Origin: a virus
Direction: 5' to 3' (one strand)
DNA: 21,649 nt
Virus record (IMG/VR): IMGVR_UViG_3300042544_003482
Location: 1-21,649 of that record
The position numbers were made by a program, and so were the translations under genes. The notes under the pieces are model-generated. The model did not search any database and was not told the origin of the DNA. It saw nothing but the letters and a program-made list of their open reading frames with translations. Positions 11,955-19,565 of the stretch are shown here, piece after piece; the first letter of the stretch is position 1; every line of letters begins with the position of its first letter.

Positions 11955-11982
11955 TATATACACTACATTATGTATTTTTCAA
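11955..11982 (-). promoter_or_regulatory. Sigma-70-like promoter for the NTPase and glycosyltransferase run
   Basis: TTGAAA (11977-11982), a 16-nt spacer and TATATA (11955-11960) on the minus strand precede the NTPase ATG by 6 nt. The -35 falls inside the last codons of the HNH gene. It would drive the NTPase, four glycosyltransferases and the methyltransferase. Confidence 0.45.
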
Positions 11983-12570
11983 GAAGGCAGACCACTCTTC
12001 TTTATAAACATCGTAAATCATACCGTTTTGCGGCTTGTACGGTTTATATCGAAGTTTGAGACCTGCTTCTTCTGGCGACATACTACCCTTCATAGAGTTA
12101 AGACCACGGTCGCAACAAGCGAGATTCTCCCATGTATCCTTACCGCCTTTACTACGAGGTACAACATGATCAATGCTTAGTTCGTGCTTAGCAAGCTTTT
12201 TGCCAGTGTAGATGCATGTAAAGTTATCACGCTTATAGATATTATGTTTGGTAGGAAACTGAATACGTGCATAGATAATTTTACTATAGTTAGCGCATAC
12301 AACTACCTGAGGTACACGTACAGGTCCTCTTGCTGTCTGAAGGTATTCGTCATACGACCTGATAGGTAGCTTGAGCCACTCATCAGGTCCATGAACTGCA
12401 GAAAAATATTCAATCGATTCGAAGTCAATATCTCCATCATCGTTTGTTTCATACGAAATATCGAGAGGAGTTACTGAGCCAGAAAAGATATTACCGAAAG
12501 TTTTTTCTATACCTTCTACACCGATAGGGAAGTAGAATTTATTTAATACAAGAATTTTATGTGATTTCAC
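11968..12570 (-). CDS. HNH endonuclease
   Basis: The 200-aa protein carries an HNH nuclease core at 112-172: YKRDNFTCIYTGKKL, then LSIDHVVPRSKGGKDTWENL with the catalytic D-H, and LNSMKGSMSPEEAGLKL. Only one residue of each usual zinc-binding Cys pair remains (C119, and C152 or C153), as in many phage relatives whose fold lacks the zinc knuckle. The N-terminal 110 residues match a domain that accompanies this HNH in bacterial and phage genes. The start is GTG at 12570; the nearby upstream ATG is out of frame. It could be a homing-type nuclease or a DNA-processing enzyme; nothing here settles which. The NTPase promoter lies in its 3' end. Confidence 0.85.
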   Translation of the reverse strand: MKSHKILVLNKFYFPIGVEGIEKTFGNIFSGSVTPLDISYETNDDGDIDFESIEYFSAVHGPDEWLKLPIRSYDEYLQTARGPVRVPQVVVCANYSKIIYARIQFPTKHNIYKRDNFTCIYTGKKLAKHELSIDHVVPRSKGGKDTWENLACCDRGLNSMKGSMSPEEAGLKLRYKPYKPQNGMIYDVYKEEWSAFLKNT

Positions 12571-13799: not shown

Positions 13800-14453
13800 A
13801 TGACATCAGACGGATTTGTATATCTTTGGTATGATAGAGATAGTAAAATGTTCTATTTAGGGTCGCATAAGGGACGCGAAGACGATGGTTATGTCTGCTC
13901 GTCAAAGCATATGCTTAAGGAGTACAAGGCTAGGCCAGAGAGCTTTAAGCGTAGAATTTTAGAGCGATGTGATGAGGCAGATATATTAAAGACAGAACAA
14001 AAGTGGTTAGATTTAATAAAGTCTAATGAATTATATTATAAGAGAGGTGTTTATTATAATGTAAAAAAGCACGCAGCTGGTGGCGATACAACAAAATACC
14101 ATAAAAATCGCGACGAAATTATACGTAAGAGGTATGGCAAAAAGCATAGTGAGTCTATTAAAGCTGCTATAAAGAAACGTACACCAGAAGCTACTTTACT
14201 TCATCAACAACGTAGGAGTAAGAGTTTAAGGACTACATACTTAAATGGATTTACGTTTTATCAATCAAAACCTATTACTGTTTTCTGTAACGGTATTATT
14301 TTTAATACATACTCTTCAATACTTGAAGCAGCGAGAGAGATACAATGCGATTATTCAACCTTCTTGAAACGAGTTAATTTAGGTATATGGATAGTTAAGC
14401 AAAAGCGAAAGCATCCTTTTAACGTAGGTGACATCATTACCTTTATCAACTAG
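13800..14453 (+). CDS. GIY-YIG homing endonuclease with NUMOD-type C-terminus
   Basis: The 217-aa protein has a divergent GIY-YIG core: FVYLW (6-10) and FYLGSHKG (18-25) in place of GIY and YIG, arginines near 51-52, a Glu in TEQKWLDLI (65-73) as the likely metal ligand, and YYNVKKHAAGG. Behind it is a NUMOD3-like patch (GKKHSESIKAAIKKR, ~113-127) and a NUMOD1-like DNA-binding region (~160-192, YSSILEAAREIQCDYSTFLK). This is the usual layout of phage homing nucleases. The gene runs against its neighbours, beginning 76 nt from the queE start on the other strand and overlapping the end of the convergent 84-aa gene by 8 nt. A CATAAATA late box lies exactly 5 nt before its ATG. Confidence 0.85.
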   Translation: MTSDGFVYLWYDRDSKMFYLGSHKGREDDGYVCSSKHMLKEYKARPESFKRRILERCDEADILKTEQKWLDLIKSNELYYKRGVYYNVKKHAAGGDTTKYHKNRDEIIRKRYGKKHSESIKAAIKKRTPEATLLHQQRRSKSLRTTYLNGFTFYQSKPITVFCNGIIFNTYSSILEAAREIQCDYSTFLKRVNLGIWIVKQKRKHPFNVGDIITFIN

Positions 14454-16439: not shown

Positions 16440-17313
16440 ATCTAAGATTATATGAACTTTCTAGCAATTGCAACTGAGTAGGTTTATTACTTTTACTAGT
16501 ATTTACCGCTGCTACGCTTTCTGCGAAGATTCTTTGTTTTATAAATATTTTTCTTATACTTTCCCTCTCTGGCTCTGTCACTTGAGTCGTTGGACTCCTC
16601 CTGAGGAATGCTTTTAGCATATCTTCTACACCTATATAATCAGTACCAGATGCGCTGGCACCAAATTCTCTCGCTAAAGCGATACGACGTGGTTTTGTTA
16701 AAGCACTACCTGCTGCATCTTCAATCCATGCAGCTAGATCAGAAACAGATATATTGCTCGGATTAGGCCAATCTGCATCTGCAAATTCTTCACCCCAGCT
16801 AACTTTTTCACGTTGTTTTTTATCTTTTGTACCTTTATTTATAATCCTATTCGAGCTATCTCTAATTTCGAGTGTATAATCACCACTAGATCCTTTTTTC
16901 GTGCGTGTAAGAATAGCTGTATATTGTTCAGCCTCTCCTTTTTTAGATGGGTCTGTACTACCTTCGCCACCTTCTAATTCACCGGGAGCGTTTGGTACAT
17001 TTACACCTCTTATACGTTTAGCGGTAAATTCTATAGCTACACGGCTATTACCAGCACTATCACCTTGAAGTTTCTTTTCCTTACCAATCTTAACAGTATT
17101 TAAATTAAATGTATTATAATATTCTGTTTTAAGTGCATCTTTTAATACTTGTTTTGGCTGCTGCCCTCTAAATGCAGAAGCCATATCTGAAAAAGGCTGT
17201 AAGTCGCTCTTAATAGCTTGACCAAGCTTAGATGTCATAAAAGCTCTTGCAGCACCTCTTACAATATCACCAAAACCTTCTTCTACTAACTGTCTTTGAG
17301 ATTCTTTTCTCAT
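16411..17313 (-). CDS. Phage protein of unknown function
   Basis: The 300-aa protein is not assigned to a family. It opens with RKESQRQLVEEGFGDIVRGA, then a helical region to ~60, a beta-rich middle with a Gly/Glu linker (GELEGGEGS), a charged KGTKDKKQREKVSWGEEF, and a C-terminal half with PSNISVSDLAAWIEDAAG and YIGVEDMLKAFLRRS. It ends with TQLQLLESSYNLRYEL. The L-x-E sites (LVE|E, LLE|S) resemble those cut by T4-type prohead protease, so it might be a head-internal protein, but that is weak inference. A CATAAATA late box is exactly 5 nt before its ATG. It overlaps queD by 29 nt and is divergent from folE. Confidence 0.7.
   Translation of the reverse strand: MRKESQRQLVEEGFGDIVRGAARAFMTSKLGQAIKSDLQPFSDMASAFRGQQPKQVLKDALKTEYYNTFNLNTVKIGKEKKLQGDSAGNSRVAIEFTAKRIRGVNVPNAPGELEGGEGSTDPSKKGEAEQYTAILTRTKKGSSGDYTLEIRDSSNRIINKGTKDKKQREKVSWGEEFADADWPNPSNISVSDLAAWIEDAAGSALTKPRRIALAREFGASASGTDYIGVEDMLKAFLRRSPTTQVTEPERESIRKIFIKQRIFAESVAAVNTSKSNKPTQLQLLESSYNLRYELPINKGN
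16434..16457. repeat. Inverted repeat over the queD start (possible operator)
   Basis: GTTCATAT (16434-16441) and ATATGAAC (16450-16457) are perfect 8-bp arms around an 8-nt centre. The arms cover a TATAAT-like -10 (16447-16452, minus strand) and the queD ATG (16439-16437). A TTGCAA lies 15 nt upstream of the -10. A protein bound here would block both promoter and start; a hairpin in a longer mRNA would hide the start codon. Confidence 0.5.
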
Positions 17314-17318
17314 ACTGT

Positions 17319-17326
17319 TATTTATG
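17319..17326 (-). promoter_or_regulatory. Late-promoter-like box CATAAATA before the 300-aa protein
   Basis: On the minus strand CATAAATA is followed by ACAGT and the ATG at 17313. It directly abuts the -35 of the divergent folE promoter. Confidence 0.55.
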
Positions 17327-17354
17327 TTGATTTATAGAAATAAAGCACTATAAT
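17327..17354 (+). promoter_or_regulatory. Sigma-70-like promoter for folE
   Basis: TTGATT (17327-17332), a 16-nt spacer and TATAAT (17349-17354) precede the folE ATG by 8 nt. The -10 is a perfect consensus. A start site about 7 nt downstream would leave almost no leader. Confidence 0.5.
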
Positions 17355-17362
17355 AAATTGAA

Positions 17363-18031
17363 ATGGAAGATCATGATCACGATGAAGCCGGCGAAATTGT
17401 TATGCTACCAAAAGCAAATGGTAACAAGCCGCGAACAGATAAAGAAAAGCAAACTATTATTAAACGTGCAGCAAAAGCATATGAAAAATATCTTGATGCA
17501 TTAGGTTTTGATTGGCGGAATGATCCTAATTCCTCTAATACTCCTATGCGAGTTGCAAAGGCTTTTGTAAATGATATTGCAGTTGGTTGTTATACTGAAC
17601 CTCCTACTGTTACTGCATTTCCATCTGATGGATATGATGGCATTATTGCTCAATGTAATATTCCTGTTAAATCTCTTTGCTCTCACCATCACCTTGCTTT
17701 TACTGGTGTCGCTCATGTAGCTTACATTCCATCATCTGATGGTAAAGTTATTGGTCTAAGCAAGCTTAACCGTATTGTAGAGTTTTACGCTCGTCGACCT
17801 CAAATCCAAGAGTCGATGACAAGACAAATAGCGACAGCTATAGATACAGTATGTGAAGGTAATCAAGGTGTAGCAGTAGTAATCAAAGCTCAGCATACTT
17901 GTGCCTGCTTGCGAGGCGTTAAGCATGAAGGATGTTATATGGTAACTAGCAAGCTGTCAGGAGATTTTATGGATGATGATAAAACTCGTAGCGAGTTCTA
18001 CAAGTTTATCGATATGTCATCGCCCTCGTAA
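17363..18031 (+). CDS. folE: GTP cyclohydrolase I (FolE)
   Basis: The 222-aa enzyme converts GTP to dihydroneopterin triphosphate, the first step toward folate and 7-deazaguanine. It has [11 protein letters not shown] (59-69), the zinc site [12 protein letters not shown] (104-115), [20 protein letters not shown] (129-148) and HTCACLRGV (178-186); by comparison with E. coli FolE, C106, H109 and C180 should bind zinc. The N-terminus is acidic and His-rich (MEDHDHDE). The last 20 codons have a near twin at 18675-18737, beyond the adjacent GIY-YIG gene, so this 3' end seems to have been replaced when that gene arrived. A sigma-70-like promoter, TTGATT-16-TATAAT, precedes it with only 8 nt between -10 and ATG. 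Confidence 0.95.
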
Positions 18032-18045
18032 AATTAATATTAATA

Positions 18046-18645
18046 CTAGCCTGGATGGTCAGCTAGCAATCGTTTTAGAGTTGGTGCGCAAATCACGTAC
18101 TTCTTTGAAACCTTGCTAGCTGACATCCCTGTTTTTATATCATGCAGAATCTCATCCCAATTTTCAGGTCTAGGTACTGTATATCCCTGTCTTCTTAATT
18201 TGATACCTCTATCAAGCAAGTATTTACGTATAGTACATTCATGTACGTTATACATTACTCCAATTTCCTTTAAGGTGCGTCCGCTCTCGTAAGCTTTAAT
18301 CATAGAGATTATATCTTTTTCGCGGTATTTTTGATAACTACCTGTTTCCGTGCCATTTTTTCTGAAGTTGAACAGAGTTCCTCCTTCTTCTAAAATCCCG
18401 TATTCCTTAATAAGCTTTGTCTCTAGTTCTAAGGCTTCGGATTCTGATAAATTGCTCGCAACAATTTGAATTATATCAGTATTTAAATATCCTTGCTGTA
18501 ATAATTTGTTTCTTTTATTCTCGCATCTACCTGCGTGATGTTTATTAAACGCTCTATTATAGCATTTTGCATATTTACCCTTGCCTACATAGAAAACTTC
18601 TTGCGTTTTTGGATTGACCCATTTATAGATATAGTACATCTTCAT
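18046..18645 (-). CDS. GIY-YIG homing endonuclease with helix-turn-helix domains
   Basis: The 199-aa protein has YIYKWVNPKTQEVFYVGKGK (5-24), a clear GIY-YIG core, with R31, HHAGRCENKR (36-45), the likely catalytic Glu in ELETKLIKEYG (73-83) and LFNFRKNG (91-98). Behind it are a helix-turn-helix resembling resolvase-type domains (IISMIKAYESGRTLKEIGV and following, ~112-148) and a second possible one (~163-195) that would read the target. It is convergent with folE (14 nt apart) and lies between the folE 3' end and a second folE 3' end. TATAAATA, the exact T4 late promoter sequence, lies 5 nt before its ATG. It is the probable mobile component of a cassette in folE. Confidence 0.88.
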   Translation of the reverse strand: MKMYYIYKWVNPKTQEVFYVGKGKYAKCYNRAFNKHHAGRCENKRNKLLQQGYLNTDIIQIVASNLSESEALELETKLIKEYGILEEGGTLFNFRKNGTETGSYQKYREKDIISMIKAYESGRTLKEIGVMYNVHECTIRKYLLDRGIKLRRQGYTVPRPENWDEILHDIKTGMSASKVSKKYVICAPTLKRLLADHPG

Positions 18646-18650
18646 ACTAT

Positions 18651-18658
18651 TATTTATA
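18651..18658 (-). promoter_or_regulatory. T4-consensus late box TATAAATA before the second GIY-YIG gene
   Basis: On the minus strand TATAAATA, identical to the T4 late promoter consensus, is followed by ATAGT and the ATG at 18645. It lies inside the presumed homing cassette, between the nuclease gene and the orphan folE end. Confidence 0.6.
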
Positions 18659-18663
18659 AAGCC

Positions 18664-18686
18664 TTCTTGTTTTTTCAGGAAGTTTT
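18664..18686. other. Weak hairpin at the cassette right boundary
   Basis: CTTCTTG and CAGGAAG can pair (one G-T wobble) around a TTTTTT loop, followed by TTTT on the plus strand. It spans the point where similarity to folE begins (18675). It may be a weak terminator or a boundary structure; the evidence is slight. Confidence 0.25.
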
Positions 18687-18737
18687 AACGATAAGACTCG
18701 TAGCGAGTTCTACAAGTTTATTGATATGTCGAGTTAA
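18675..18737 (+). pseudogene. Orphan folE 3' end (remnant left by homing cassette)
   Basis: Reading codons from 18675 gives SGSFNDKTRSEF, then YKFIDMSS and a stop. The intact FolE C-terminus reads [14 protein letters not shown], then [10 protein letters not shown]. Bases 18690-18730 match 17978-18018 at 39 of 41 positions, and both mismatches are synonymous (AAA/AAG, ATC/ATT). No start codon or other folE sequence lies just upstream. Its TAA (18735-18737) overlaps the stop of the convergent gene (18734-18736), a natural gene junction, so this is likely the original folE end, cut off from its gene by the ~718-bp insertion that carries the GIY-YIG gene. Confidence 0.88.
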
Positions 18738-19165
18738 TAATCAACCTCAATATTGTCAGTACTAATATTCTTAGCATTGACATCAATCAGAGCATCAAGC
18801 TGTCTGATAAAGTCACGACCAATGAGTACTTTGTATTCATTGGTCTCTCTGTTTCCGACGCTAAAAGCTACATTGTCGAATTCCTGACCAGCAAATTTAA
18901 CTCTGAAAGTAACAACATATCTTTCTTCGACATGTCCGCCACCGATATTAATATTAATAGTATCTGCAATATCTTTAATAAGACGTTTGCCTCCTACTGT
19001 AGTAAATAGAATCTTGTCTCCTTGACGTGTGATATCAGTCCCATGAATTACAGGGTGAGCTGAATTACCGCTATCTACTTTTGCTGCAATTTTGCCAATA
19101 CCTGCAATATCAATCTCTTCTATGAGACCAATTACGGTTGCTTCGTAAAACTTTTTGAATGACAT
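18734..19165 (-). CDS. Retropepsin-like aspartic protease fold protein (RimK-associated 'zinc protease' family)
   Basis: From the ATG at 19165 the protein is 143 aa. It has VIGLIEEIDIAGIGKIAAKV followed by DSGNSAHPVI (31-40) with the D-S-G of retropepsin-like folds, an internal FRVKFAGQEFDNVAFSV, and YKVLIGRDFIRQLDALIDV (111-129). This layout matches the PF05618 family, called ATP-dependent zinc protease but folded like a single pepsin lobe. Activity would need a dimer; targets in phages are unknown, and capsid or peptide processing is possible. The ATG at 19165 follows the upstream stop by 1 nt; an alternative ATG (19180) would overlap that gene. Its stop overlaps the orphan folE stop. Confidence 0.8.
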   Translation of the reverse strand: MSFKKFYEATVIGLIEEIDIAGIGKIAAKVDSGNSAHPVIHGTDITRQGDKILFTTVGGKRLIKDIADTININIGGGHVEERYVVTFRVKFAGQEFDNVAFSVGNRETNEYKVLIGRDFIRQLDALIDVNAKNISTDNIEVDY

Positions 19166-19166
19166 C

Positions 19167-19565
19167 TTAGAGATTCTCATAACCGACTTGGAACATTATT
19201 GAATGATCATCATCTTGCTCAGCATCTTGGCAGCCGCAATCATCCTTGTATTTGTAGTAGTCATGAACACCACTGACATAGTCTGCAGCTTTGGCTAATT
19301 TAATTAAAGCCCATCCATCGAGATCAGATTTATGCTCGAGAATAGAAAGTAATTCAGGCGCTACTTCGCTAATTTTACGAAGCTGATTTAATGCCATTTC
19401 GATGTCAGAAGACTCGCATTCGCCAGTCTCATCTGTTTCATCTTCACTATAACCGCCTTCAAATTCTAAGTGATCAGCAGGGACATTAGTAGTAACCATG
19501 ACCGGCATAGCGGCCTCGCGTATGGTACTATATGCCCTTGCTATATCATAAAGTGTATGCCTCAT
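19167..19565 (-). CDS. Small acidic helical phage protein of unknown function
   Basis: The 132-aa protein starts MRHTLYDIARAYSTIREA, then a strongly acidic stretch (about 36-55, with DETDETGECESSD), then a helical region MALNQLRKISEVAPELLSIL and DLDGWALIKLAKAADYVSGV to ~102, followed by HDYYKYKDD, a CGC and an acidic end. The pattern L-x-x-I plus GW-(A/V)-x-x-K-(I/L)-x-x-A-x-D-Y-(I/V)-x-x-V-x-D-Y-x-K recurs in marine phage proteins near head genes, but no function is known to me. A CATAAATA late box lies exactly 5 nt before the ATG. It is followed after 1 nt by the retropepsin-like gene. Confidence 0.7.
   Translation of the reverse strand: MRHTLYDIARAYSTIREAAMPVMVTTNVPADHLEFEGGYSEDETDETGECESSDIEMALNQLRKISEVAPELLSILEHKSDLDGWALIKLAKAADYVSGVHDYYKYKDDCGCQDAEQDDDHSIMFQVGYENL

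Follow-up and report, generated by a model that had tools for sequence, protein, structure and literature searches.

A free-standing GIY-YIG endonuclease gene lies antisense to folE, at the very end of that gene, in the window (the whole stretch of DNA analysed, a viral record from IMG/VR with 21,649 nt). We consider it probable (about 0.8) that this gene is part of a folE-specific homing cassette that supplies its target with a substitute gene end, and that the cassette was joined imprecisely on its right side in this genome. The reading is built on the anatomy of the locus, a fixed insertion site, an empty/occupied pair, imported tracts in relatives, a conserved hairpin and a degenerate copy, all of which were observed directly. 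The features of the locus are as follows, in window coordinates:

17363-18031 (+): folE, GTP cyclohydrolase I, complete, C-terminus ...KFIDMSSPS* (Pfam PF01227 GTP_cyclohydroI, E 7e-50)
17978-18018 (+): inner repeat copy, continuous with the folE body and ending exactly at the insertion point
18019-18689: inserted cassette, 671 nt (669 nt in locus L035), delimited by the repeat limits and by the same insertion point in L035/L038
18019-18031 (+): cassette-supplied folE end read from the sequence, i.e., the last base of S219, then S-P-S and the stop
18046-18645 (-): GIY-YIG endonuclease gene with a helix-turn-helix C-terminal part (Pfam GIY-YIG; PHROG 314 homing endonuclease)
18053-18129 (+): long hairpin with a 17-pair outer stem (18053-18069/18113-18129), beginning 22 nt downstream of the folE stop, then TTTTT at 18132-18136
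18651-18658 (-): TATAAATA, a T4-late-promoter-like sequence 5 nt before the nuclease start codon
18663-18682: hairpin CTTCTTG-TTTTTT-CAGGAAG in the nuclease 5' flank, source of an apparent SGSF reading (-7.4 kcal/mol, z -2.0)
18690-18730 (+): outer repeat copy, not translated, either what remains of the folE tail or a duplicate of it
18731-18737 (+): ancestral folE end (..GAGTTAA), the same as in empty-site relatives
18734-19180 (-): convergent gene of the putative ATP-dependent zinc protease family (Pfam PF05618, E 1e-6), earlier described as retropepsin-like

The nuclease gene is intact. As originally observed, it lies between folE and a second folE 3' end, and the stop codon of the outer copy (18735-18737) overlaps that of the convergent gene, an overlap also present in nuclease-free relatives.

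The nuclease scored 23.7 bits against Pfam PF01541 (curated cut-off 22.6) and matched the solved GIY-YIG proteins 9u7u/9u75. IMG/VR contained 250 folE relatives, and 80 folE loci (L numbers) formed the comparison set. Homologues of the nuclease with 53-74% amino acid identity were found in L070, L035, L024 and L063, each of them antisense and directly after folE. Residues Y5, Y19, R31, E75 and N93/N97 are invariant across the five proteins, and by analogy with I-TevI they may be catalytic. Searches that started from the nuclease (alignment and single proteins, folE not used) returned the same loci plus L096, and nothing else. In L096 the GIY-YIG domain is deleted and the C-terminal part is left at the folE end; the folE tail is the same as in L063. 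This degenerate copy, which occupies the same site and keeps the replacement tail, is a decayed stage of the homing cycle. Isolate phages (tblastn) contained no relatives of the window nuclease, bacterial genomes contained generic GIY-YIG domains only and no closer relatives, and the literature search returned no description of a folE-associated homing endonuclease. The folE ORF is uninterrupted and has its own stop, and the nuclease is antisense, so that there is no intron or intein around it. A group I intron or other structured RNA was also considered and rejected, with no Rfam match at E<=1 in 17300-19200. The late-promoter reading of TATAAATA is suggestive only, because the window has 11 occurrences of the short form TAAATA-N-ATG against 7.7 expected, which is no significant enrichment.

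The window also contains a T4-type portal gene (PHROG portal) as well as PTPS/queD-like and queE-like genes. At 13800-14453 (+) there is another GIY-YIG/Seg-like homing gene (PHROG 314), which is positioned 5' of the queE-like gene and points away from it; homologues occur at the equivalent position in L022, L075 and L080, and the gene is absent from L018 and L012. It possibly marks a second homing site in the same pathway as folE. The third nuclease gene of the window codes for an HNH endonuclease (11968-12570, -; Pfam HNH_5, PHROG HNH).

In L011, L012, L015 and L018 the same convergent gene abuts a single folE tail and no nuclease is present; hence, an empty site exists. That much had been anticipated, but the tail found there, SGDFM[DN]...[IV]DM[AS]S*, is of the GDFMDD type carried by the inner copy. 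Nuclease-free relatives that have a tail of the GDFM[DN]DE type and lack a second copy largely contradict the original prediction, in which the outer tail was ancestral and the inner one foreign. The alignment of L018 with the window is gap-free from position 18690 rightwards (86% over 2,960 nt) and also covers the folE body up to 18018. The insertion point was located most precisely with a near-isogenic pair, L035 (occupied) and L038 (empty), which are 98.5% identical over 8 kb (98.6% across the 4,235 nt to the left of the insert, 98.4% across the 4,217 nt to its right). Here, 5 nt are replaced by 669 nt, and the protein end changes from ...KMASVK* to ...KMAEPR*. The left limit of the insert follows ATGGC in this pair and ATGTC, at 18018, in the window. 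Since the two points correspond exactly, the end supplied by the cassette in the window is 18019-18031, and the insert proper is 671 nt long (18019-18689), not the ~718-bp unit including the inner tail that had been proposed. Native folE ends in MAS* or MSS* in L011, L012, L018 and the outer copy, whereas the window gene ends in MSSPS*, so that the insert provides an in-frame end and stop. The claim of a replacement C-terminus thus stands in that folE is intact and has a new end, but the supplied part amounts merely to about four codons and a stop. The folE C-termini of occupied loci are all unusual (MSSPS, MATRN, MAAVDNH, MAEPR and SDVTKK), and their stops are abutted or overlapped by the nuclease stop. 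Presence of the nuclease is polymorphic at one site, with intact empty sites (L035/L038; L018/L012). Against the homing model it counts that only one exact occupied/empty pair is available, tail divergence blurring the other insertion points. In the window, native sequence beyond the nuclease ORF comprises 18690-18737; in L035 and L070 it amounts to no more than a few nt.

Two further loci deserve mention. The nuclease-free L038 has the canonical ASVK end, yet it matches the unusual folE tail of L035 at 99.5%, and it is either a target just before invasion or the product of precise nuclease loss. L082, a contig assembled from a different sample (3300042559), matches the window at 100% identity for 2,857 nt and ends at window position 18793, 56 nt past the outer copy; an occupied/empty polymorphism may have interrupted its assembly there.

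The segment just before the outer copy, TCAGGAAGTTTTAAC, can be read as SGSFN, and it had been taken for diverged folE with a 6-nt in-frame gap and, being recoded, for a destroyed cleavage site. However, TCAGGAAG is the right arm of the 18663-18682 hairpin and pairs with CTTCTTG, and similar hairpins occupy the equivalent place in L070, L063 and L096. Furthermore, the pattern CTTGTTTTT-CA..A.GTTTTAAC recurs in the 5' flank of the L024 nuclease homologue: this flank reads CTTGTTTTTACAATATGTTTTAAC in L024 and CTTGTTTTTTCAGGAAGTTTTAAC in the window, where the 41-nt repeat starts at the next base. Because it completes the hairpin and recurs in L024, TCAGGAAGTTTTAAC is probably not diverged folE. 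It is best explained, as judged from these comparisons, as the nuclease's own cassette flank, folE homology beginning at 18690, and it gives no basis for proposing a destroyed cut site.

Each occupied folE was then compared with its nearest nuclease-free relative, picked on the 5' part of the gene. In three comparisons the differences jumped 207-211 nt before the insertion point, near the codons of the conserved YARRPQIQE motif (about 17787-17813 in the window). Between L024 and L025 they rose from 4.1% in the body to 23.7% in the last 211 nt, with 92-97% similarity in the right flank; between L070 and L016, from 11.9% to 30.9% (right flank 88% similar); and between L063 and L075, from 15.0% to 37.0% (right flank 83% similar). 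The L024/L029 breakpoint gave a Fisher p of 9e-11, a signal reached in 0/1000 permutations. Among 52 dereplicated nuclease-free controls only L002/L003 gave a stronger signal, and L038 a similar one; islands end at the nuclease in 3/5 occupied loci, compared with roughly one independent event in the controls. The last ~210 nt of folE beside the nuclease in L024, L070 and L063 are thus, by sequence comparison, an imported tract (co-conversion). The original prediction that the inner tail came with the nuclease agrees with these three loci, but the inner copy of the window is not demonstrably foreign: against L014 the folE body differs by 15.6% and the tail by 26.3%, which is not significant (LLR 5, within the range of the nuclease-free controls), and against L018 no island was seen. 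In the nuclease-free pair L002/L003 the folE 5' part differs by 1.4% and the last ~229 nt by 20%, possibly the scar of a past nuclease visit. The swaps in L002/L003 and L038 indicate that the folE tail also recombines where no nuclease is present, or that L038 has lost its nuclease.

The hairpin beyond the folE stop (18053-18129) is antisense to the last 26 codons of the nuclease. Its minimum free energy in the window is -42.9 kcal/mol (z -6.3), and the z values are -5.2 in L070, -6.9 in L063 and -4.4 in L096. In a gap-free codon alignment the 17 stem pairs are 92.6% paired, and 8 have changed on both sides (compensatory); 0/500 shuffles reached as high a covariation, slid versions were 30-47% paired, and the pairs exceeded synonymous resampling in 4/4 sequences (P 0.0002-0.0045). 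As L063 and L096 are related, this support comes from about three lineages. Several of the compensating pairs join third codon positions, which argues for selection on the nucleic acid and not on the protein alone. On the folE strand a T-run lies 3' of the hairpin (TTTTT in the window, T7 in L096). A different hairpin occupies this place in L024 (z -4.7), and L035 has no clear 3' hairpin (z -1.6), which counts against the homing-cassette model. We favour the hairpin as a candidate substitute folE terminator or mRNA 3' end over a role in the nuclease's own mRNA. In many nuclease-free relatives (L005-L040) a hairpin that hardly varies, GATCCCGTG..CACGGGATC, is located about 45 nt downstream of the folE stop and within the first codons of the next gene, and the nuclease cassette parts folE from it.

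The following sequence of events is proposed. The nuclease gene family would invade phage genomes at a single fixed position, some four codons short of the folE end and downstream of the last conserved residues of the gene. The cassette would bring the last codons, the stop and an antisense hairpin within the nuclease's last codons, and folE would stay functional because a substitute gene end is carried in. The nuclease presumably cuts nuclease-free folE within the last ~210 nt, and repair from a nuclease-bearing phage would copy both the cassette and the donor folE tail. In the window, a break in the recipient tail would have been repaired on the left by copying from the donor through the cassette, and on the right the cassette would have been joined to the recipient's broken folE tail and not rejoined by homology, plausibly because the donor's downstream gene did not match. 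Such joining would leave a 41-bp target duplication between the cassette and the downstream gene, and it is as such a product of imprecise right-side repair that we best read the outer copy. GATAA, which occurs in the L070 right flank and again where the outer copy begins, offers a possible microhomology. The fuller claim, that the cassette carries the entire end of its target gene (codons, stop and an antisense transcription-ending hairpin) together with a co-converted, maybe cut-resistant 3' third of folE, seems to us almost an even bet.

How the two repeat copies arose bears on several alternatives. The 41-nt repeat is not a chance match (39/41, blastn E about 1e-11), and a search of other viral contigs for its 35-nt shared tail found none. 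The original prediction gave its coordinates and its two synonymous mismatches (AAA/AAG and ATC/ATT, both transitions) correctly, but it went too far in choosing import over local duplication on this ground: a random transition in this stretch has a chance of about 29% of being synonymous, which gives ~0.09 for two, so that the observation is weak evidence and two mismatches cannot decide. One alternative is that insertion simply doubled the genome's own 41 bp and the copies drifted by two transitions. We regard this as a serious possibility, if on the lower side of even: the repeat flanks the insert exactly, as a target duplication would, and GAT is common to both copies where the nearest relatives have GAG. 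On the other hand, GIY-YIG enzymes leave short staggers, so that 41 bp would need repair with an offset, and the other occupied loci show no such duplication. Alternatively, the inner tail (17957-18031) and the nuclease could have been imported as one unit from another phage, the outer copy being the untouched native tail. That the nuclease travels with imported folE tails in L024, L070 and L063, and that the outer copy runs without a break into the native downstream gene, are in line with this. It is nevertheless rather doubtful, as the outer copy is no closer to the empty-site relatives L012 and L018 (36 and 36 of 41 matches, against 38 and 36 for the inner copy, in a stretch too short to resolve origin), SGSFN is cassette flank and the window has no clear island. 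In addition, 39/41 is reached in this stretch by 1.4% of folE pairs with 78-85% identical bodies and by 67-93% of pairs above 90%, which indicates that both copies come from the same or very close genomes, and any donor would have been very close. The inner copy is not demonstrably more foreign than the outer one, and the repeat data agree with a 41-bp target duplication, local or nearly so, as well as with co-conversion from a close donor.

Two further explanations were considered. The outer copy could have been kept as an operator, i.e., a homing-site-like sequence for autorepression of the nuclease, as in I-TevI (PMC2988022). It does lie 32 nt upstream of the TATAAATA element, which would drive the nuclease, but its absence from the homologue flanks of L070, L024, L035 and L063 means that it is no family feature, which makes this very improbable. 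The nuclease could also be an ordinary hypothetical gene in an intergenic hotspot, with tail differences due to general phage recombination, as the L002/L003 swap might suggest; the fixed insertion point, the exclusive association with folE, the GIY-YIG fold, the enrichment of islands at the nuclease over controls and the degenerate copy at the same site render it very improbable.

If the fuller claim about the cassette is true, a selfish gene encodes the 3' end of its target on its own opposite strand, and loss of the cassette would damage an important gene. The folE loci offer a phage model, with occupied, empty and degenerate alleles found in nature and two of them near-isogenic, for the harmless entry of a homing gene into the coding end of a metabolic gene. 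They open the cut site, the extent of co-conversion and the function of the antisense hairpin to direct tests, and they connect phage intronless homing with the C-terminus-replacing elements of fungal mitochondria.

Replacement of a gene end by a homing element is well known in fungal mitochondria; C-terminus-replacing homing at folE or phage gene ends was not found in the open-access literature searched, an absence that is no proof of novelty. Mobile ORFs with duplicated C-termini were described in Allomyces macrogynus atp6 and in Glomus sp. atp6, atp9, cox2 and nad3; they are sense-oriented, and their replacement tails of 51-238 nt have 64-81% nucleotide identity to related species (PMC3630166). 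The window shares with them an endonuclease ORF placed at the 3' end of a gene, a substitute C-terminus in frame and a native C-terminal remnant beyond the ORF, but its nuclease is antisense, its insert codes for about four residues and its remnant is 41 nt long and 95% identical. The fungal tails are clearly diverged from the native ones; in the folE family a foreign tail is shown for loci other than the window. The free-standing Seg and Mob endonucleases of T4 are known for intronless homing, co-conversion, late promoters and hairpins (PMC2988022). In common with these, the folE family has a free-standing GIY-YIG gene beside a conserved phage gene, a late-promoter-like element, co-conversion and an upstream hairpin. 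In contrast to the T4 type, the window cassette enters the coding end and replaces the stop and the 3' hairpin, and the antisense orientation, exceptional in T4 (segD only), is the rule in the folE family. I-TevI, which is intron-encoded, shares the GIY-YIG nuclease domain and a separate DNA-binding region and cleaves upstream of its insertion site, as we propose for the folE nuclease, but the window locus has no intron or Rfam match. In the ICP1 exchange regions bounded by homing endonuclease genes, a nuclease gene likewise marks a recombination boundary near an important gene (PMC10448857); a text search of that paper found no mention of folE/cyclohydrolase or C-terminus replacement. Overall, the sequence comparisons suggest that the folE element is a phage counterpart of the C-terminus-replacing homing elements of fungal mitochondria, combined with intronless homing of the T4 type.
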